DNA from: Rhodospirillales bacterium
GTDB lineage: Bacteria > Pseudomonadota > Alphaproteobacteria > Rhodospirillales > Defluviicoccaceae
Length of the DNA stretch: 35,799 nucleotides
Direction: 5' to 3'
Assembly: GCA_025458035.1 (NCBI GenBank)
Contig: JALOTH010000034.1
Span: 1 to 35,799, forward strand
In this document: piece by piece, positions 9,089 through 34,883 of the stretch
Numbering within the stretch: position 1 is the first letter of the stretch
Layout of the letters: each line of letters starts with the position of its first letter
Notes under the pieces: model-generated
What the model was told of the DNA's origin: nothing
The model's database searches: none
Seen by the model: only the letters and a program-made list of their open reading frames with translations
Made by a program: the position numbers and the translations under genes

Positions 9089-10606
9089 ATGAGCCGTGTC
9101 GTTCGCCCCGACGCGAACCGCCCCGGGCAACGCGATGCCGGTGCCGACACCGTGACGCGCGGTCGACGCCATGCCGTGTTGGCGACAGTCCTGGCGTTGG
9201 CGGTCGGGTTCGCCACCACGGCGCCGGCCGGCGCCAAGACCGCCCCGGACACCTTCGCCGATCTCGCCGAGCAGCTGTTACCATCGGTGGTTAACATCTC
9301 GACGACGCAAGTGGTCGAAGGAAATACCGGCATTGAGGTGCCGGTTCTGCCGCCGGGCTCGCCGTTCGAGGAGTTCTTCAAGGAGTTCATGGAACGAGGG
9401 CAGCCGCGGCAGCGCCAGCGGCGAGCCACCTCGCTCGGCTCCGGCTTTGTCGTCGACACCTCCGGCCATGTGGTGACCAACAACCACGTCATCGCCGACG
9501 CCGACGAGATTTCCGTCATTCTCGCCGACGAGACACGGCTGCCGGCGCGGGTGGTCGGCCGCGATCCGAAGACGGACATCGCGGTGCTGAAGATCGAGCC
9601 GACGCAAAAGCTGCGGGCCGTCCGCTTCGGCAACTCCGACCAGGTGCGGGTCGGCGACTGGGTCATCGCCATCGGCAATCCGTTCGGCTTTGGCGGCACC
9701 GTCACCGCCGGCATCATCTCGGCACGCGGCCGCGACATCAACGCCGGCCTCTATGACGACTTCATCCAGACCGACGCATCCATCAACCGCGGCAACTCCG
9801 GCGGGCCGATGTTCAACCTCGCCGGCGAGGTGGTCGGCATCAATACCGCCATCTTTTCCCCATCGGGCGGCAGCGTCGGCATTGGTTTCGCCATCCCCGT
9901 CAACGGCGCCAAGCCGGTGATCGACCAGCTGATCCAGCACGGCCAGGTGCGGCGCGGCTGGCTCGGCGTGCGCATTCAGGGGGTGACCGACGAAATCGCC
10001 GAAACCCTGGGGTTGAAAGGCGCCCACGGCGCCCTTGTCGCCAGCGTCATGGACGGCGGGCCGGCTCAGGCGGCGAACATTCGCCCCGGTGACGTGATCA
10101 TCGAGTTTGACGGCAAGACGGTGGATCAGATGCGCGGACTGCCGCGGCTGGTTGCCGAGACGGAGGTGGGCAAGACCGTCGACGTGAAGCTCTGGCGTGA
10201 GAACCGCGAGATGACCGTTCGCGTCAAGGTTGGCACCATGGAGGATGAGGAAACCAAGGCCGCGACCGCTCCCGTTAAGCCGGAGGGGGCGCGCGGCGCC
10301 GAAAAGGTGGCCGCCCTCGGCATCTCCGTCGCGGCGATCGACGACAAGCTGCGGCAGACGTTCGGGATCAGCGGCGATGTCCAGGGCCTTGTCGTCACCC
10401 AGGTCGATCCGGCCGGCACCGCCGCCGCCGAAGGCATCAAGGCGGGCGACGTCATCGTTCAGGTCAGCAAGGAAAAGGTCGACCAGCCATCGCAGCTGAT
10501 GGACAAGCTCAATGCGGCAAAAACCGCCGGCCAGCGATCGCTGCTCGTTCTGATCGAGAGCGATTCGGGCATGCGCTTCATCGCCATCCGCATCGACCGT
10601 GGCTGA
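9089..10606 (+). CDS. degP: Do-family periplasmic serine endoprotease (DegP/MucD-like)
   Basis: A 505-residue HtrA/Deg protease that degrades or refolds damaged envelope proteins. An N-terminal hydrophobic segment (residues 29-48, AVLATVLALAVGFATTAPAG) serves as signal or anchor. The trypsin-like domain holds H133 (VTNNHVIADA), D163 (KTDIAVLKI) and S237 (RGNSGGPM). PDZ1 is at about 285-375 (RRGWLGVRIQGV) and PDZ2 at about 410-500 (LVVTQVDPAGTAAAEGIKAG). ATG 9089 has CAGGAGA eight bases upstream, better than the ATG at 9020. It sits downstream of hflKC, a common arrangement in Rhodospirillales and other proteobacteria, linking membrane and periplasmic quality control. Confidence 0.93.
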   Translation: MSRVVRPDANRPGQRDAGADTVTRGRRHAVLATVLALAVGFATTAPAGAKTAPDTFADLAEQLLPSVVNISTTQVVEGNTGIEVPVLPPGSPFEEFFKEFMERGQPRQRQRRATSLGSGFVVDTSGHVVTNNHVIADADEISVILADETRLPARVVGRDPKTDIAVLKIEPTQKLRAVRFGNSDQVRVGDWVIAIGNPFGFGGTVTAGIISARGRDINAGLYDDFIQTDASINRGNSGGPMFNLAGEVVGINTAIFSPSGGSVGIGFAIPVNGAKPVIDQLIQHGQVRRGWLGVRIQGVTDEIAETLGLKGAHGALVASVMDGGPAQAANIRPGDVIIEFDGKTVDQMRGLPRLVAETEVGKTVDVKLWRENREMTVRVKVGTMEDEETKAATAPVKPEGARGAEKVAALGISVAAIDDKLRQTFGISGDVQGLVVTQVDPAGTAAAEGIKAGDVIVQVSKEKVDQPSQLMDKLNAAKTAGQRSLLVLIESDSGMRFIAIRIDRG

Positions 10607-26354: not shown

Positions 26355-27710
26355 TTGCATGCTTTCAGACTCCCGCCGCTGCCGCTTGTGAACCGGGTTT
26401 TTTTCGCCATCATCGCGGCGGCCTACGCCTTTGCCGCCGGGCAAGCGCTGTTTGATGGCAGCACGTCCGCCATGGAGGCGTTGGCGCGCGCCAGCCTTGA
26501 GAGTGCCGCAGACGGCGTCAAGATCGCCATCGGGCTGATCGGCATCCTCGCTCTGTTTCTCGGCCTGATGCGCGTCGGCGAGCGCGCCGGCATCGTCGTC
26601 GCCGTCGCCCGACTGCTGCAGCCGCTGATGCTCCGGCTGTTTCCCCGCGTGCCCGCCGGCCATCCGGCGATGGGCGCGATGATTTTCAACATGTCGGCGA
26701 ACGTGCTGGGGCTCGGCAACGCGGCGACGCCATTCGGCATCCGCGCCATGCAGCAGTTGCACCGGTTGAACCGGCAGCAGGGCGAAACCGATCCTGCCAC
26801 CGCGACCGACGCGATGGTCCTGTTCCTCGCCATCAACACCGCGAGCATAACGCTGCTGCCGACATCGGTGATTGCGCTGCGTGCGGCGGCGGGATCTGCG
26901 GACCCCGCTGGCGTGCTGCCGACGACGCTGTTCGCCACCCTGTGCTCAACGGTGACCGCGATCCTCGTCGCCCGCATCGGCGCCAAGTGGTGGCCCGCCA
27001 AGCCACCCGGCGCTGACGCGCGCGCGGCGCTGGCGGCACCCGGCGACGGAGCCATGGCCGATGAACCCGATGACGCCGAAGCGGGGACGAGCACACGCGT
27101 CGAAACCGGGTATCCCGCCGCGGTCGGCATCGCCGCCGCCGTCGCCGTCGTTGCCCTCATTCCGCTGACGATCCTGTTTGGCCAGCAACTGGCCGCCTGG
27201 ATCATCCCGACCCTCATCTTCGGCTTTCTCGCCTACGGCATGATGAGGAACATTCCCGTTTATGCGGCATTCGTCGATGGCGCGCGCGAGGGCTTCGACA
27301 TCGCCGTGAAGATCATTCCCTATCTCGTCGCCATCCTCGTCGCCATCGCCATGCTGAAGGCGTCGGGCGCCGTCGATCATCTGCTGATGCCGCTCGGCCG
27401 CTTGACGGCGCCGCTTGGCCTGCCGCCGGAAGGCCTCATCATGGCGGTGTTGCGCGCCCTCTCCGGATCCGGCGCCTTCGCCTACCTGGCGGCGTTGCTC
27501 AACGATCCGGCGATCGGCCCCGACAGCTACACCGGCTATCTCGTCAGCACCATACAAGCCTCGACGGAAACGACATTTTACGTCATCGCCGTCTACTTCG
27601 GCGCCGTCGGCGTGATCCGCTTTCGTCATGCGGTCATTGCCGGCCTCGCTGCCGACGCCGTCGGTCTCGTCGCCTCGGTGGTCATCTGTCGCCTGCTGCA
27701 TGGCCCATAG
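26355..27710 (+). CDS. SpmA-SpmB fused nucleoside-recognition (Gate) domain membrane protein
   Basis: A 451-residue, highly hydrophobic protein with two Gate-domain halves. The first (about 10-200) resembles spore maturation protein A, with GVKIAIGLIGILALFLGLMR, then FPRVPAGHPAMGAMIFNMSA and NVLGLGNAATPFGIRAMQQL. A charged Ala/Asp/Glu linker follows at about 215-250. The second (about 250-448) resembles SpmB, with NIPVYAAFVDGAREGFDIAV (KIIPYLVAILVAIAML), LSGSGAFAYLAALLNDPAIG and STIQASTETTFYVIAVYFGA. In Bacillus, SpmA and SpmB act in spore-core dehydration; in non-spore-formers the role is unknown, though transport is likely. Starts: TTG 26355, or GTG 26388 with a cleaner membrane N-terminus. 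Confidence 0.85.
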   Translation: MHAFRLPPLPLVNRVFFAIIAAAYAFAAGQALFDGSTSAMEALARASLESAADGVKIAIGLIGILALFLGLMRVGERAGIVVAVARLLQPLMLRLFPRVPAGHPAMGAMIFNMSANVLGLGNAATPFGIRAMQQLHRLNRQQGETDPATATDAMVLFLAINTASITLLPTSVIALRAAAGSADPAGVLPTTLFATLCSTVTAILVARIGAKWWPAKPPGADARAALAAPGDGAMADEPDDAEAGTSTRVETGYPAAVGIAAAVAVVALIPLTILFGQQLAAWIIPTLIFGFLAYGMMRNIPVYAAFVDGAREGFDIAVKIIPYLVAILVAIAMLKASGAVDHLLMPLGRLTAPLGLPPEGLIMAVLRALSGSGAFAYLAALLNDPAIGPDSYTGYLVSTIQASTETTFYVIAVYFGAVGVIRFRHAVIAGLAADAVGLVASVVICRLLHGP

Positions 27711-27925
27711 CCCCGGTCCGGGGCGCCGTCGCGCGAATCAGCCGACAGAATCTGACGCCCCCCGACCCCCCAAATGTGCCATATAGACGAAAAAATGGGC
27801 ACAAAATCAACGACTTTCAACCCCCGCTTGCTCGCTTAACCGAATCATGGTTGCAAAGTAAATCTGGATTTGTTACTCTTTATGCGTGTTTTGAGTGAGT
27901 TGTATATCGTATAGCGAGCACAGCG

Positions 27926-28132
27926 ATGAACAGCAACCTCTTCGTCAGCACAATCGCCTACGAACAACGTCATGGCCGGAAGCCGCGGGGTTATGGCCTT
28001 TGGTACTTTCGCATGCCCGGCGGCCTGACCTTCAGCTACCCTGGCGGCTACCATGCGGCGGCCCGTGCCGCCTCCGCGTTCGCCAGCCGGCTGCATTACG
28101 GCGTGGACGAGCCGATCCGTCTATACGCCTGA
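27926..28132 (+). CDS. Small basic aromatic protein, unrecognised
   Basis: A 68-residue protein, MNSNLFVSTIAYEQRHGRKP followed by RGYGLWYFRMPGGLTFSYPG and an Ala-rich helix (YHAAARAASAFASRL). Its codon use is typical of the genome, unlike the AT-rich 150 bp before it (27765-27920), which could carry its promoter; a weak TTGCAA-17-TACTCT pair lies near 27850-27878. The GRKPRGYGLWYF core looks like a compact conserved fold, but I cannot name a family. It is convergent with the HD-GYP gene. Confidence 0.5.
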   Translation: MNSNLFVSTIAYEQRHGRKPRGYGLWYFRMPGGLTFSYPGGYHAAARAASAFASRLHYGVDEPIRLYA

Positions 28133-28212
28133 CGGCGTTTGACCCGCCCGCGGACGCCGCCACCGTTCCGCAGGGTTGGGGGGATCCGGATCGCCGGCCG
28201 GGGGTGCGCCGC

Positions 28213-29865
28213 CTACTCGGCGAAGCACGGGTGCAGGGATACCGGAACGTCGGGCAGGCCGCCTTCATCGACGCGGATGCGCCCGCCCTTGACCCCATCA
28301 ACGAAGGCGCGGACGACCACGGGATCGAACTGTGACCCCGCCTGCTCTTCGAGGAAGCGAAGGGCATCGTCCACCGTCCACGGCGCCTTGTAGGGTCGGC
28401 GCGTCGTCAACGCATCGAAGACATCGACGACACTCAAGATCCGCGCCGCCAGCGGGATGTCCTCGCCAGACAGTTGGCGCGGGTATCCCTGCCCATCGAA
28501 CCGCTCATGGTGGGCGGCGGCAATCTCGGCGCCGACGGAGAGATACGTCGCGCCGTCGACCATCGCCGCCGCCTGCTTCAGGATGCTTTCGCCGATTTCC
28601 GGATGCTGCCGCATCCGCTTGAACTCGCCGTCGTCGAGGCGGTCCTGTTTGCCGAGGATCGCATCGGGAATCCCGACCTTGCCGACATCGTGCAGCACGC
28701 TGGCAAGGCCGGCGAGTTCGGCGACCGCATCGGTCAGGCTGCCGGCAAAGTCACCGCGCAGGCGCAATTCGGCGATCAGCGCGCGGGTATACCCGCAGAC
28801 GCGCAGCACGTGGCGGCCGGTGGTATCGTCCTTGAATTCGGCGCACTTGGCGAGCGCGAGAACCGACGCCTGTTCGCTCCGTTTCAACTGCTCAAACAGA
28901 TAGATGTTATCGAGGCCGACGGCGGCCTCGGCACAAAACAACGCCGCCAACTCCTGCTCGAGGTCCGACAGACCGCGGTCGTGCTCCAGCAGCATGACCA
29001 CTTCGTGCCGGCTCTGGGTGCGCTGGAAGATGGTCGATCGCCGCGGCTGATGCCGGCTCTCGCCGCGGCGAAACGCCGCCTGCAAACGATCGCGGAGATC
29101 GGTTGCGGTGATCTCCGCCAGCCGCTGATGGAGGCATGCGGTAAAGCCGCCGCTCGCCGCCACGATCTGCGCCGCTTCCACCGGCTGCCCCTCGCTCCGC
29201 CAGCAGACGAGCTTGTCGTCGGTCAGTGCGAGCACGCGGCACAGGCTGTCCGGCAGCGCGGCGAGAAAGCTGGCCAGCGAGCGCAGCTTGAACAGCTCGG
29301 CGGTTTCCGCAAGGATCGCGGCGAGTCCGCGGCGGCTGCGCTCGATCGTCGTCAGATCCACGTAGGCGCGCAGCGCGGTCGTAATCATCGTGAACAGGCG
29401 CGTTGCCGTCAGCTCGGACTTTTCCCGGTAGTCATCGATGTCATACGCCAAGATAACGTCGCGTTCCGGCGCCGAGCCCGGCTGGCCGGTACGCAGGACG
29501 ATGCGCGCCAGCCGGTCTCCCCGTTCATCACGAATATGGCGGACGAGGTCGAGACCGGCGCGCTCCGTCTCCATCACCACATCGACGATGATGACGGCGA
29601 GATCATCGATTTCGGCGAGCCGCCGACGCGCCTCCGCCGCCGAATAGGCGCTGATCAGGGTCAGGCCGCGACCGCGAAACCGGTAATCGCCGAGGACCCG
29701 CGCCGTGATGCGATGCACATCCGGCTCGTCGTCGACGACCAGCACGCGCCACGGCGGCAACGCCGGCGCCGCCACTTCGCCACGCGGCGCCGTTTCCGGC
29801 GCGAACACCAGTTCATCATCGGCGGCATGCACGCACGCACCTGCGTTCCGCTGCTCCCTATTCAT
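28213..29865 (-). CDS. Response regulator with REC, DUF3369 and HD-GYP domains
   Basis: The 550-residue protein has a receiver domain at residues 38-160 (acid pocket D45/D46, phospho-acceptor D95 in VIIVDVVM, T126, K149 in YREKSEL). DUF3369 spans about 165-325 (LAALPDSLCRVLALTDDKL; HDRGLSDLEQELAALFCAEA). The HD-GYP phosphodiesterase domain is at about 335-535. Metal ligands are visible: H351, the HD pair H392-D393 in LHDVGKVGIP, H421, H452/H453, the GYP triad 460-462 in HHERFDGQGYP, and D481. HD-GYP enzymes with these residues hydrolyse cyclic-di-GMP. It is translationally coupled to the kinase gene upstream by ATGA, so the kinase is its likely phosphodonor. Confidence 0.92.
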   Translation of the reverse strand: MNREQRNAGACVHAADDELVFAPETAPRGEVAAPALPPWRVLVVDDEPDVHRITARVLGDYRFRGRGLTLISAYSAAEARRRLAEIDDLAVIIVDVVMETERAGLDLVRHIRDERGDRLARIVLRTGQPGSAPERDVILAYDIDDYREKSELTATRLFTMITTALRAYVDLTTIERSRRGLAAILAETAELFKLRSLASFLAALPDSLCRVLALTDDKLVCWRSEGQPVEAAQIVAASGGFTACLHQRLAEITATDLRDRLQAAFRRGESRHQPRRSTIFQRTQSRHEVVMLLEHDRGLSDLEQELAALFCAEAAVGLDNIYLFEQLKRSEQASVLALAKCAEFKDDTTGRHVLRVCGYTRALIAELRLRGDFAGSLTDAVAELAGLASVLHDVGKVGIPDAILGKQDRLDDGEFKRMRQHPEIGESILKQAAAMVDGATYLSVGAEIAAAHHERFDGQGYPRQLSGEDIPLAARILSVVDVFDALTTRRPYKAPWTVDDALRFLEEQAGSQFDPVVVRAFVDGVKGGRIRVDEGGLPDVPVSLHPCFAE

Positions 29866-31079
29866 GATACCGGCCCGGCAACGACGGCGCGAGGAATGAT
29901 GATGATGAATGTCGTCCCTTCGCCGACATGACTTTCGCAGCGGATCTGGCCTTCCAGTTTCCCGCGCACCAGCGTTTCGACGATGAACAAGCCGAGCCCG
30001 GTGCCACCGGCGTGTCCACTGCGGGTAAAGAAGCGCTCGAAGATCCGCGGCACGTCCTCCGGTGGTATGCCTTTGCCATCGTCGCTCAGTCGGATCTCGA
30101 TATCGCCATCGAGAGCGCGGGCGGAGATCAGGATATGGCCAGGCGCGCCGGTCGTGAACGCATGCTCGAGGGCATTGATAATCAGGTTGATGACGATCTG
30201 GGATACGGCACCCGGATAGCTGTCGAGGGCGAGATCGGGCGGGCAGTCGATGGTGATCTGGTGTGGCGTGTGCCGGAGCCGCGGGCGAAGGTTGAAGACG
30301 ATATCCTGAAGGTAGGCTTTCAGGAGGAAGCCGCGGCGGGCCTCGCTGCGTTCGTCGGCGGCGACTTGCTTGAAGCTGCGGATCAGGTCCGCCGCGCGCA
30401 TCAGGTTGCCCTGCACGAGCTTCGCTTCCTCGCCGACGGTATCAAGGAAACCCACCAGTTCCGACCGCTTCAGGCTGCCGGCATCGAGCTTCGCCGACAC
30501 ATCCGCCGCCGTCTCCGCGAGATGCGAGGCGCAGGTGATCCCGTTGCCGATGGGGGTGTTGATCTCGTGGGCGATGCCGGCGACGATATCGCCCAGCGCA
30601 GCCAGCTTGCGCGCCTCCACGAGATCATCCTCACGGCGCTTTAGGTCGGCGAGGGTGGCTTCGAGCAGCCGGCACATCGCGTGTAGCACCGCTTCGGCGT
30701 GCACCAGCGCCTGCTGGCCGTCGGGCAGCGTGACCACCAGCGGCAGCTCCCGTTCCGACGGCGGCCGGCTGAGGACGATGTGGGCCGCCTCATCGATGGT
30801 AACGCCGGCGGCGACGATGGTCGGTCGCGGCTCCAGATGCACCATCAGCGTGCGGATCGGCCGATGCAGGTAGAGCGCGTGGCCGAAGCGATGGCTGAGC
30901 TTGTCAAGGAAAGCGGTGCGTTCGACGACGCCGGCGATGCTGCCGTTCTTGTCCTTGACGATGACGCCGGGAAGATCGGGATCGGCGCGGAGCAGTTTGT
31001 CCACGTCTTCGCCGGGCGTGTCCGCATCGACCGTTGCCATGTGCAGCGGCAGGTCGGCCAGTATCGGCTTGGCAGCCAT
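29862..31079 (-). CDS. Soluble sensor histidine kinase with CBS-like N-terminal domain
   Basis: A 405-residue kinase with no transmembrane segment. Residues 1-135 look like a CBS-pair or CBS-like regulatory module (ADLPLHMATVDADTPGEDVD, DLPGVIVKDKNGSIAGVVER, RPIRTLMVHLEPRPTIVAAG, LPLVVTLPDGQQALVHAEAV). A linker helix leads to HisKA with H171 (LAALGDIVAGIAHEINTPIG). The HATPase_c domain has the N box INLIINALEHA, the G1 box DDGKGIP, the F region RIFERFFTRSG and the G2 box GGTGLGLFIVETLV. HEINTPIGNG is typical of the HisKA subgroup with long coiled dimer helices. It starts 9 bp after the mscS-like stop and overlaps the HD-GYP regulator. Confidence 0.9.
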   Translation of the reverse strand: MAAKPILADLPLHMATVDADTPGEDVDKLLRADPDLPGVIVKDKNGSIAGVVERTAFLDKLSHRFGHALYLHRPIRTLMVHLEPRPTIVAAGVTIDEAAHIVLSRPPSERELPLVVTLPDGQQALVHAEAVLHAMCRLLEATLADLKRREDDLVEARKLAALGDIVAGIAHEINTPIGNGITCASHLAETAADVSAKLDAGSLKRSELVGFLDTVGEEAKLVQGNLMRAADLIRSFKQVAADERSEARRGFLLKAYLQDIVFNLRPRLRHTPHQITIDCPPDLALDSYPGAVSQIVINLIINALEHAFTTGAPGHILISARALDGDIEIRLSDDGKGIPPEDVPRIFERFFTRSGHAGGTGLGLFIVETLVRGKLEGQIRCESHVGEGTTFIIIIPRAVVAGPVS

Positions 31080-31088
31080 GCGGTCGCG

Positions 31089-33707
31089 TCAGATGCCGTC
31101 GAGGGGCGGGCGGACGGACCGCTTCAGCAGCCGCGTCAGGTCGCTGTCCCGAGGCGACATCGCGGCGTCGGCGGCGGCGACGGCCGGCGGTACGGCCGCC
31201 GGCGGCGCCCCGGCGGATTCCGCCGCCGGTTCCAGGAGCGAAGCGGCGGGCGGCGCGGCTTCCGGCGACGGCGGTGGCGCACCGGCTGGCGACCGCAGCG
31301 CCTCGATCATCCTGTCCAAATCGCGGATATGGACATCGCTCTGCGCGTACGGGATCTCGATCCCCGCCTCGCGGAACGCCTTGTCGATGGCGAAGCGCAG
31401 TTCGCTGCTGACCGTCAAGCGCTTCTCGACGTCGCTGAGATAGGCGTAGAGGACGAAATCCAGAGAGCTGGGGCCGAAGTCAACGAAGAACACCGCCGGC
31501 TTTGGCCAGGATACGACCTCGGCGTGCGCCTCGGCACAATCCAGCAACGTCTTGCGCACTCTTTCCACGTCCGAGCCGTAGGACACGCCGATGCGGATTT
31601 CGACCCGGCCAGACTTGTCCTTATGCGTCAGGTTAAGCACCGACTGCGACAGCAGCTCCGAGTTGGGCAGGATCACCGTCGAGCGATCAAACGTCTGAAT
31701 TTCCGTGGCCCGCACGCTGATCTTCCGCACGTAGCCCTGCTGGCTGCCAACGACCACCCAGTCACCCACCTTGATCGGCCGCTCGGCCAGCAGGATCAGG
31801 CCGGAAACGAAGTTGTTGACGATGTTCTGCATGCCGAAGCCGATGCCGACCGACAGGGCGCCGGCGACGATCGCGATATTGGACAGGTCGATGCCGGCGA
31901 CGCCGATGGCGATCAGCGCGGCGACGACGACGCCGGCGTAGCCGGCCGCCGTTGCCAGCGAGTTGCGCACGCCGGCATCGAGGTTGGTGCGCGGCAACAC
32001 CCGCTGATCCAGGGTCTGGCGCAGCCGGCCGGCGATGATCAGTCCGACGGCGAAGACGAGGATGGCCGAACCGATGTCGATGAGGGAGATGTTCACGCCG
32101 CCGATGGCGAAGCCGCTGACGGCGCGGCCCAGCCAGAGGTTGAGATCGTTTTCCGGCACGCCCCAAACGAGGAGCAGAGCGTAGGCAGCAAGGCCATAGA
32201 ACAGCAGGGTCGCGGCGCCACCGAGCCAGAAGCGAAGGTTGCTGCGCTCCCGTCCGTCGAAGGCGAGGCGCCCCTCGCGGAGATGCGCGGAGCTGAGGAC
32301 CGCGATCGTTTCCTCGATGAGCCGCTTGAGGACGTAGATGACCGCCAACACCACTGCGGAGTTGAGCAACCCCTGCATGATAAAATTGCCGAGTGCCGCA
32401 TAGCCGGCGGCGATGGCGGCAATGCTGCCGAGGGCGAGGACGGCGACGCCGATGCGCAGCCCTTGGCCAATGCGCGAGGGCACGGCCGTCGCCGCTTCGG
32501 CCGACGCGGGCGGGGTGATCGCGGTCTCGGTCTCGCCGGCGGGCGCCGTCGCGGCTTCGGTCAGCCACAGGCCGGGGCGAATCAACAGCAGCAGGCCGAA
32601 CGCCAGGATCGAATCACTGAACAGGGCCCACGTCGCCTTGGTCGCCACCGACAGGTTGAGCGAGCCGGCCGAGCCGATGACCATCCGATCGAGGGCGTAC
32701 GCGGCGGCGAGGAACAGAATGGTCCGGTCGAGGCGGCGGGCGGCGCGCGCCGTCTGCGGTGTCAGCCGCCAGCCCGGATGCCTCGGCGCCAGTGCGGCGC
32801 TCGACAGCGCCGCCGTCATGATCAGGAAGATCAGCCCGATGCAAACCTGGGTGATGATGTCCGCCGCCAGCCCGGCGTTGAGCTTGAGGTCCACCTTGAT
32901 GCGAAAGTAGATGGCACCGAGCAGCACCGCGGGGATCAGTCCGTCGGCAACGGCGACGGCGAGCGCGGCGACGAGCCGGCGGGCGTAGGTCGGGTGTCCC
33001 GAGTCCTGATGCGGCCCGAGCCGGCGCACCAGCCAGCGCCGAACCGGCCACGCCGCCAGCGCGACGACGAAAACCCCGATCGTACGCCAGTCGTAAAGGA
33101 AGCCGTCCCGCTGTTCCGGCGTCAGCGCGCGATACCAGTGGACCGGCGCCAAGGCGAGGGCGTTGAGGGCGGCACCGATGCCGGCGAGGCCCTCACGCAG
33201 CGTTGCCGGCAGCAGCGGCGATGGGCTGCGCGCCAGCATGCGGGAACGGAAATCACTGCGATAGGCCTTGGAAAGCTCCTCCTGCAGGGCCTTTGCCCGC
33301 GTCGCCGCCAAGTCCGTCTGCGCCACGCGCGCCCGCGCGTCGGCAAGCGCGGCGTTCAGATCCTTGCGCTGCTTGGCGATCTCCGACGTTTCCGGCGGCT
33401 GCCCGTCGGCCGGCGGCGGCCCGAGCGCATCCAACAGCCGCTGCTGCGACAGCAGCTCGGCTTCGGTGATCTCGCGCAGTTGGGCCGCCTCGATGATGAT
33501 GGCGCGCAAGGTGTCGGCATAGGCCTGCTGCGCCCGCTTCGATCGGTCGGGTGATCTCAGATCGGCCTCGATGGCCGTGAACGCCCGCGTCCAGTCCTTC
33601 GCCGCCTCAGCCATCGAGCGCGGGCCGCTTTGCGCATCGGCGGCCACGGCAGTGAGGGCAACGACACCGATGATGACGAGGCTCGCGAGCAGCCTGTGCA
33701 GCGCCAT
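31089..33707 (-). CDS. Large MscS-family mechanosensitive channel with DUF3772-like periplasmic domain
   Basis: An 872-residue membrane protein. The signal peptide is residues 1-25 (LLASLVIIGVVALTAVAADA). A periplasmic coiled-coil segment at about 30-160 (DUF3772-like: EAELLSQQRLLDALG, AKQRKDLNAALADARARVAQ) is followed by about ten hydrophobic helices (190-600). The MscS core is near 600-770: pore helix IAIVAGALSVGIGFGMQNIV (NNFVSGLILLAERPIKVGDW), then VRKISVRATEIQTFDRSTVI and LPNSELLSQSVLNLTHKDKS. The C-terminal tail is Pro/Ala-rich. Such channels release solutes on membrane tension. It is the first gene of the tight mscS-kinase-HD-GYP set, with the transglycosylase gene 114 bp upstream. Confidence 0.9.
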   Translation of the reverse strand: MALHRLLASLVIIGVVALTAVAADAQSGPRSMAEAAKDWTRAFTAIEADLRSPDRSKRAQQAYADTLRAIIIEAAQLREITEAELLSQQRLLDALGPPPADGQPPETSEIAKQRKDLNAALADARARVAQTDLAATRAKALQEELSKAYRSDFRSRMLARSPSPLLPATLREGLAGIGAALNALALAPVHWYRALTPEQRDGFLYDWRTIGVFVVALAAWPVRRWLVRRLGPHQDSGHPTYARRLVAALAVAVADGLIPAVLLGAIYFRIKVDLKLNAGLAADIITQVCIGLIFLIMTAALSSAALAPRHPGWRLTPQTARAARRLDRTILFLAAAYALDRMVIGSAGSLNLSVATKATWALFSDSILAFGLLLLIRPGLWLTEAATAPAGETETAITPPASAEAATAVPSRIGQGLRIGVAVLALGSIAAIAAGYAALGNFIMQGLLNSAVVLAVIYVLKRLIEETIAVLSSAHLREGRLAFDGRERSNLRFWLGGAATLLFYGLAAYALLLVWGVPENDLNLWLGRAVSGFAIGGVNISLIDIGSAILVFAVGLIIAGRLRQTLDQRVLPRTNLDAGVRNSLATAAGYAGVVVAALIAIGVAGIDLSNIAIVAGALSVGIGFGMQNIVNNFVSGLILLAERPIKVGDWVVVGSQQGYVRKISVRATEIQTFDRSTVILPNSELLSQSVLNLTHKDKSGRVEIRIGVSYGSDVERVRKTLLDCAEAHAEVVSWPKPAVFFVDFGPSSLDFVLYAYLSDVEKRLTVSSELRFAIDKAFREAGIEIPYAQSDVHIRDLDRMIEALRSPAGAPPPSPEAAPPAASLLEPAAESAGAPPAAVPPAVAAADAAMSPRDSDLTRLLKRSVRPPLDGI

Positions 33708-33821
33708 GCGCGTCCCTTGTCGCGTCTAACTCTTCGTTCGGTGATCGTTATCGCAAGCCGCGGCGCGCCGGGCAACGGCCGGAAGGACGGGACGCCGCGG
33801 GCGCAGCGCTAAGCCGGAGCG

Positions 33822-34883
33822 CTAGCGGGTCTGCACCCGCTCGACGGTGCGGCCGTCCCCGCGCAGGACCGAAACGTTGCGCCCCGAAGCGGCCCTTGCC
33901 GATTTCGCCGCGTCCTGGTCCCGCTGCTGCTGCTCCCGCCATGCCTGCAGGTAGGCGACCCGCTGCTCGGTAAATGCCTTGCCGTCCTGACCAGCCTTAC
34001 CCCCGCCCGCATCCTTTGCGGTCTGTGGCCGGGTGACACGCACCACCAGTGGCGGTGTCGAAGCGCCTTTCGGCGCCGTCAGCGCCACCGTCGGCTGACG
34101 CGATCCCGGCGTGATCATCACCGGTTGCTCGGCGGTGCGCAGCCAGATCTCACGCAGCGGAATCGGCCGATCCTCCGACGGCGTCGCCGCCAGCGCCTGG
34201 CGCATCGCCTCGATGCGCTGCTCGAGCGTCAGCTGCCGGCCGGATTTCGCGTTCAGCGGTAGCAGCCGAAGCTGCCGCTGCTCGGCGGCAAGACCGCGCA
34301 GCCCGAGCCGCCGCTGATCATTCCAGGCGGCAAGCACCCGCGCCTTGTAGGGGCCGTTCAGTTCCGGAGTCGCCGAGTGATAGCGGCCGGTCGCTTCCGT
34401 CCACGAGCCCGTCTGCTGGTACAGGGTCTTGAGAAAGTCGGCGGCGTAGGCGACGTTGGTTGCGGGCTCGAACGCTTCCGTCAGATCGGAAAAGGCATCG
34501 CCGTGGTAGCGCAGATTCACCTGCATGCAGCCGACGTCGATGCTGTTGACGCCGCGCGCCTTCAGGGCGCGCACCGCCGCGATCGCCGCGCCCATGCTCG
34601 GAAAGTATCGCCCTTCGCCCTCCGCGTTGATGGTCCACGGCCAGGCGATCTTGGTCTGCCGATGCGCGTCCCAGCGCCCCGACTCCGTCAGCGCGATCGC
34701 CTGCATCAGCCGCGCCGGAATGCCTTGCTCGCGCTCCTCGCGGGCGATGGCTTGGGCGCAGAGGTCGCGCGGATCACCGAAGGAGGCGGCGTCCAGCGAC
34801 GTCGCCGTGCGCGCGGCCGAGGCCTCGTTCGCCCCGCTCAGCACACCGATCAAGGCCGCTGCCACAACCTTAAATCGCATCAC
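33822..34883 (-). CDS. Periplasmic lytic transglycosylase (SLT domain)
   Basis: The 353-residue protein has a signal peptide (about 1-23, KVVAAALIGVLSGANEASA) and a Slt-type lysozyme-like domain at about 40-190: catalytic E67 in QAIALTESGRW, GCMQVNLRYH at 118-127, ATNVAYAADFL at 141-151 and TGRYHSATP at 166-173. It would cleave peptidoglycan glycan strands to leave 1,6-anhydromuramic ends. The second half (about 200-353) is a charged, partly coiled region (QRVAYLQAWREQQQRDQDAA) with no recognised domain. It is co-directional with the channel gene after 114 bp, but whether they share a transcript is open. Confidence 0.88.
   Translation of the reverse strand: MMRFKVVAAALIGVLSGANEASAARTATSLDAASFGDPRDLCAQAIAREEREQGIPARLMQAIALTESGRWDAHRQTKIAWPWTINAEGEGRYFPSMGAAIAAVRALKARGVNSIDVGCMQVNLRYHGDAFSDLTEAFEPATNVAYAADFLKTLYQQTGSWTEATGRYHSATPELNGPYKARVLAAWNDQRRLGLRGLAAEQRQLRLLPLNAKSGRQLTLEQRIEAMRQALAATPSEDRPIPLREIWLRTAEQPVMITPGSRQPTVALTAPKGASTPPLVVRVTRPQTAKDAGGGKAGQDGKAFTEQRVAYLQAWREQQQRDQDAAKSARAASGRNVSVLRGDGRTVERVQTR

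Follow-up and report, generated by a model that had tools for sequence, protein, structure and literature searches.

According to the available part of PMC9756655, DUF3369 ranks with the most prevalent accessory domains of HD-GYP proteins in Alphaproteobacteria. By domain make-up, the regulator studied here resembles VCA0210 of Vibrio cholerae, in which DUF3369 accompanies a receiver (REC) domain and an HD-GYP domain; in the available portion of PMC4212101, VCA0210 is described as hydrolysing cyclic-di-GMP in vitro and as a phosphodiesterase in vivo. It also hydrolyses 3'3'-cGAMP, as stated in an excerpt of a review (PMC8177086). The same excerpt gives the HD-GYP motif as H..HD..H..HH..D, and states that dinuclear HD-GYP enzymes perform one hydrolysis step and that trinuclear enzymes proceed to monophosphates. 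It names E185 of PmGH from Persephonella marina as the glutamate ligand for the third metal. On the channel side, the MscS homologue CmpX of Pseudomonas aeruginosa has a reported effect on cyclic-di-GMP-linked traits (available parts of PMC10965496 and PMC7641640). CmpX is encoded in the operon cmaX-cfrX-cmpX, for which the part of PMC7641640 at hand mentions neither a kinase nor an HD-GYP gene. In the one literature collection that was searched, no paper joined a mechanosensitive channel, an HD-GYP protein, a histidine kinase and a CBS domain, two papers mentioned DUF3369, and the available parts of PMC8846402 and PMC8320348 held nothing on a channel-kinase-regulator arrangement.

In this study, we analysed one stretch of DNA of 35,799 nucleotides (the window), and found three minus-strand genes that encode, in transcription order, an MscS-type channel, a soluble histidine kinase and a REC-DUF3369-HD-GYP regulator. 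The channel gene (872 aa) spans 33707-31089. Its TGA stop codon is separated by 9 nt (31080-31088) from the ATG of the kinase gene (405 aa, 29862-31079), which in turn shares an ATGA stop/start overlap (29862-29865) with the regulator gene (550 aa, 28213-29865). The composition, spacing and coordinates agree with those given by the sequence-only reading of this DNA.

A lytic-transglycosylase-like gene (SLT domain in Pfam) lies directly upstream of the channel gene on the same strand (33822-34883), and the strand opposite the cassette encodes, at 26355-27710, a protein in which Pfam finds two stretches of Gate (nucleoside recognition). Within the HD-GYP gene, ARAGORN called a tRNA (28309-28388) whose assignment could not be read; this call is probably false. 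Contamination is unlikely: the contig carries SRP54, ribosomal L19, aconitase/isopropylmalate-type, acetolactate synthase and Band-7 genes, and the codon usage of the cassette is that of the window.

To characterize the regulator, we combined Pfam searches, alignments and a structure model. DUF3369 (3e-35) and HD_5 scored above their Pfam cut-offs, and REC fell just below (28.8 vs 30.2 bits). Among 12 regulator sequences, the acidic pair of REC and the residues Asp95, Thr126 and Lys149 do not vary, and no membrane segment was found by a simple hydropathy scan. The regulator has HD..GK and HHE..DG.GYP, and alignments with relatives, PmGH and PA4781 revealed the complete H..HD..H..HH..D metal motif and the GYP triad, which identify a predicted HD-GYP phosphodiesterase. 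In contrast to PmGH, the regulator has Thr in the column of the third-metal glutamate, which sets it apart from the trinuclear enzymes. The same Thr occurs in the regulators of two related loci, L133 and L134, and glutamate was read at this position in 39 of 65 rows by a text pattern, which put some of the rows out of place.

The regulator model (mean pLDDT 82.1, 12 sequences) was compared with solved structures. The part comprising DUF3369, a linker helix and HD-GYP (residues 172-538) aligned with PmGH (4mcw; Z 26.2, rmsd 4.0, 334 residues aligned), a match that excludes REC. Residues 36-326 aligned with a fragment of a dual-sensor kinase (6oaq; Z 18.8, rmsd 5.6, 264 aligned). Both of these structures hold a GAF domain in the aligned part, and on this basis DUF3369 (29385-28885; regulator residues about 160-326) is probably a GAF-like domain, the comparison of this part resting on few rows as one domain fills most of them.

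The kinase has the features of a sensor histidine kinase. HATPase_c was detected by Pfam (7e-27), and both CBS (0.006) and HisKA (0.012) were below their cut-offs. The phospho-acceptor His and the ATP-binding motifs are present: in an alignment of 25 kinase sequences H171, N302, D333, G335, G337, G361 and G363 are invariant and G359 is nearly so. In the AlphaFold2 model (mean pLDDT 85.1 from 25 sequences), residues 1-135 have the strands and helices of CBS-type repeats, residues 128-199 form a long helix, and a kinase core is present. A structure comparison that covered the core, with one domain filling most rows, gave 3d36 as the first row among known kinases (Z 20.6, rmsd 3.1, 210 aligned). 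No membrane segment was found by the hydropathy scan, as had been claimed.

We also examined the sensor domain, which the sequence-only reading had called CBS-like. The profile of the N-terminal region (residues 1-135; 30675-31079), built from five relatives including the window's kinase, matched solved CBS-pair proteins (such as CBSX1/2 and AcuB) with E values from 4.8e-6 to 0.0055. The Pfam CBS cut-off was passed by a relative in locus L140 (37.4 vs 24 bits) and three other relatives scored below it. The profile match, the L140 hit and the secondary structure of the model together identify two CBS repeats, the window copy itself being below the Pfam cut-off, and the CBS-like assignment is thereby upheld.

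In typical CBS domains, a Thr and an Asp at the end of the repeat are nucleotide-binding positions. In an alignment of 48 copies, the window kinase, unlike the CBSX1/2 and AcuB type, carries His and Ala in their place where repeat 2 ends, and it has three extra residues before repeat 2 that are missing from the other 47 copies. By sequence, a canonical nucleotide sensor in this CBS pair is not supported. Since 19 of the 48 copies have the Thr and 22 have the Asp, each being missing from over half, the loss in the window only mildly weakens the earlier guess that the kinase senses a nucleotide.

The CBS pair is one case of a widely reused module. At an E value of 0.01, a threshold that lets in weak matches, the module was matched in 99 of 317 genomes searched in the order and 155 of 398 in the phylum. 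It was found in kinases, in proteins with GGDEF/EAL motifs and before a SpoIIE phosphatase domain (L246 and L295), and Arg R54 of the window kinase (region 31079-30675) is constant in 48/48 aligned copies. The two SpoIIE loci (L246 4699-10071; L295 2482-7770) consist of a CBS + SpoIIE phosphatase gene, a DUF6272 gene, a GGDEF-motif gene and, at the end, a REC-DUF3369 gene with an EAL motif. We take the DUF6272 gene to be SiaB-like, and the row is presumably Sia-like. A DUF6272 gene also occurs in L003 (2943-3632), upstream of a kinase and a REC-DUF3369-histidine-kinase hybrid.

For the channel, Pfam detected DUF3772 and the MscS beta and C-terminal domains above their cut-offs, and the hydropathy scan predicted several membrane segments. 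The channel core aligned with solved channels of the MscK/MscS type (7uw5, 6rld; residues 520-810 with MscK), which, together with the MscS domains, assigns the protein to the MscS family. It differs from MscK/MscS in its DUF3772 N-terminal region, and its score is below the NCBIfam MscK cut-off (236.6 vs 991 bits).

To evaluate how often the kinase and the regulator are paired, we surveyed 132 neighbourhoods of DUF3369 genes, each at most about 12.5 kb long, consisting of 52 places from one search and 80, mostly stronger matches among those listed, from another. After L213-L218 were dropped for having no regulator above 100 bits, 126 were kept. These gave 130 regulator rows, two regulators being counted twice owing to the overlap of L126 and L140. 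A kinase of the window's type, as set by a profile seeded with the window kinase, was present within 300 bp of the regulator in 69 of the 130 rows (62 on the same strand, 54 upstream as in the window), and no such kinase was present within that distance in the other 61. The output domains of the regulators were HD-GYP (65), EAL (29), kinase (12) and GGDEF (3), and 21 were unrecognised by the motif patterns. An MscS domain, counted with a purpose-built profile, occurred in only 1 of the 126 neighbourhoods, on the other strand and 3.9 kb from the nearer regulator.

The converse survey started from 17 CBS-kinase neighbourhoods, which are not independent, 12 belonging to one family and 5 to another. 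A DUF3369 regulator was found in 11 of them; in eight it lay within 300 bp, five times on the same strand and three times on the opposite strand (L140, L299 and L300). In the other six there was no DUF3369 gene in the surrounding stretch; on short contigs such as L163, L110, L114, L305 and L310, a missing neighbour is weak evidence. In L140, L149, L299, L300 and L310, the gene next to the CBS-kinase encodes a REC-DUF3369 protein with an EAL motif. An MscS domain was present in 0/17 of these neighbourhoods. The pairing of such a kinase with a DUF3369 regulator, which the window's genes show with their ATGA overlap, is thus common and not universal. In L140, the gene that ends 23 nt before the CBS-kinase (9181-10077) encodes a peptidoglycan-binding domain according to Pfam, indicating that the upstream neighbour of such kinases varies.

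Among the rows compared, the nearest relatives of the pair were found in L133 and L134, which belong to one genus. Here, a CBS-kinase is followed by a REC-DUF3369-HD-GYP gene with a 1-nt overlap; a universal-stress gene precedes the pair and mreB lies close by (identified in L133 with Pfam). No channel was found in the 12.5 kb around the pair. The window kinase is nearest to those of L133/L134 by tree path (support 93/83, 75 rows), in a tree of moderate support that carries long-branch warnings elsewhere and leaves out the loci of the contig scan, including L022. Among the matches listed, core identity is as high or slightly higher elsewhere (48% to L149; 49% to the cyanobacterial L022). The best match of the regulator, by BLAST score and tree path, is also L134/L133 (47% identity; tree support weak, 0.64). 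The L134 kinase DNA is identical to that in L026, an alphaproteobacterial MAG. In L309 (8287-9857), a close relative of L133/L134, the REC-DUF3369 gene loses its frame within the HD-GYP part, which is either an assembly error or a broken gene.

Furthermore, we searched 60 genomes near the window's, its own included, among them four others of the genus and six more of the family. Near-full-length relatives of the channel (42-45% identity) were found in 6 of the 10 genus/family genomes. The kinase was not found in these 10, where no match was better than E 1.7e-20, the level of kinases in general; the matches listed covered the kinase core wholly or in part at 29-35% identity, apart from one 113-residue match at 45%. 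DUF3369 was likewise not found in the 10, including the six with a channel relative. In 18 channel neighbourhoods from the genus, family and order, some of them on short contigs, the kinase or the regulator occurred in 0/18; the only other window gene matched was a protease-like gene, in two, and the SLT gene was unmatched. Since genus and family genomes are few and some are incomplete (3 of the 10 below 90%), a young but real three-gene linkage could be missed. The codon usage and G+C of the kinase and regulator genes match those of the window's other genes, so there is no compositional sign of a recent foreign origin of the pair; the kinase and DUF3369 are still missing from the 10 genus/family genomes.

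Across the 18 channel, 126 DUF3369 and 17 CBS-kinase neighbourhoods, the row of three genes did not turn up a second time, and no conservation beyond one genome was seen. This absence of the linkage in relatives is the outcome that the sequence-only reading had itself set beforehand as speaking against its proposal. That proposal was a pathway from membrane tension through the channel, the kinase and the regulator to cyclic-di-GMP hydrolysis. The predicted steps from the kinase onward are supported by the recurrent pairing and the intact motifs; the surveys lend no support to the channel as input (0/17, 0/18, and 1/126 in a non-adjacent position).

We therefore consider it likely that kinase and regulator work on their own as a two-component pair, which lowers cyclic-di-GMP, and that the MscS channel is a separate osmotic valve with no specific signal for the kinase. 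This explanation builds on the gene layout, the domains and motifs, the pairs without a channel and the channels without a pair; phosphotransfer, the substrate, the product and the nature of the signal are predictions. The CBS pair of the kinase would read a cytoplasmic state. The kinase would autophosphorylate on His171 and pass the phosphate to Asp95 of the regulator, and phosphorylation of Asp95 would switch the HD-GYP domain through the GAF-like DUF3369. The HD-GYP domain would then hydrolyse cyclic-di-GMP, and its residues make a single cleavage step, with pGpG as the product, probable. Substrate could come from the proteins behind the nine GGDEF matches in the genome. Counting against this reading, PilZ, a candidate cyclic-di-GMP receptor, was not matched in the genome, and VCA0210 acts on 3'3'-cGAMP as well. 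Compared with VCA0210, the proposed system differs in having a soluble partner kinase that carries a CBS pair, and in the Thr that its regulator has for the third-metal glutamate. The channel would act as a safety valve against osmotic stress, encoded ahead of the pair in this lineage and perhaps on the same transcript, and it probably plays no functional part in the pair's signalling. That operon partners are often functionally linked counts against regarding the valve as separate.

Such a link could lie in expression only: one envelope- or osmotic-stress promoter would drive both the valve and the pair, and cyclic-di-GMP would fall without direct signalling between them. The genes are on the same strand with 9-nt spacing, and a consensus scan found no promoter-like or terminator-like site in the gap, which suggests that the channel and the kinase are possibly on one transcript. 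However, the promoter scan used the sigma-70 consensus only and returned zero sites anywhere in 27700-34100, so it says little and a shared transcript of channel and pair is rated as possible. The row is also not conserved in the genus or family, and we regard shared expression as the whole explanation as unlikely.

A direct signal from the channel is highly improbable. Under the tension pathway, opening of the channel would alter the ions or solutes of the cytoplasm, or the channel would make contact with the kinase; the CBS pair would register either event, and the cyclic-di-GMP level would drop. The tight cassette in this genome would fit such a route, as would the finding that overexpression of CmpX raised the expression of cyclic-di-GMP-linked genes in P. 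aeruginosa (available part of PMC10965496). However, the three genes were seen linked in this genome only, and repeat 2 of the CBS pair ends without the usual nucleotide-binding residues. The idea that the channel has a conserved tail for docking was also considered and rejected, as the C-terminal tails of the three relatives compared (eight loci were tried and three gave a row) are unlike the window's. Slightly less probable still is a lineage-specific arrangement, in which the MscS channel became the membrane input of the kinase, by its opening or by contact of its cytoplasmic part with a CBS pair from which the usual nucleotide-binding residues have been lost, and cyclic-di-GMP falls on osmotic downshift.

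On the preferred explanation, a self-contained pair beside a separate valve, the arrangement looks ordinary, as the pair and the channel were found apart in the relatives examined. The locus illustrates how closely spaced genes in a single genome can point to a pathway for which a broader comparison gives no support. If the channel did feed the kinase, turgor would be linked directly to cyclic-di-GMP. For the wider family, the CBS pair belongs to a module with a constant Arg that is reused in kinases, GGDEF/EAL enzymes and SpoIIE-type phosphatases, and a GAF-like DUF3369 would mean that regulators of this kind may carry a second intracellular sensor.
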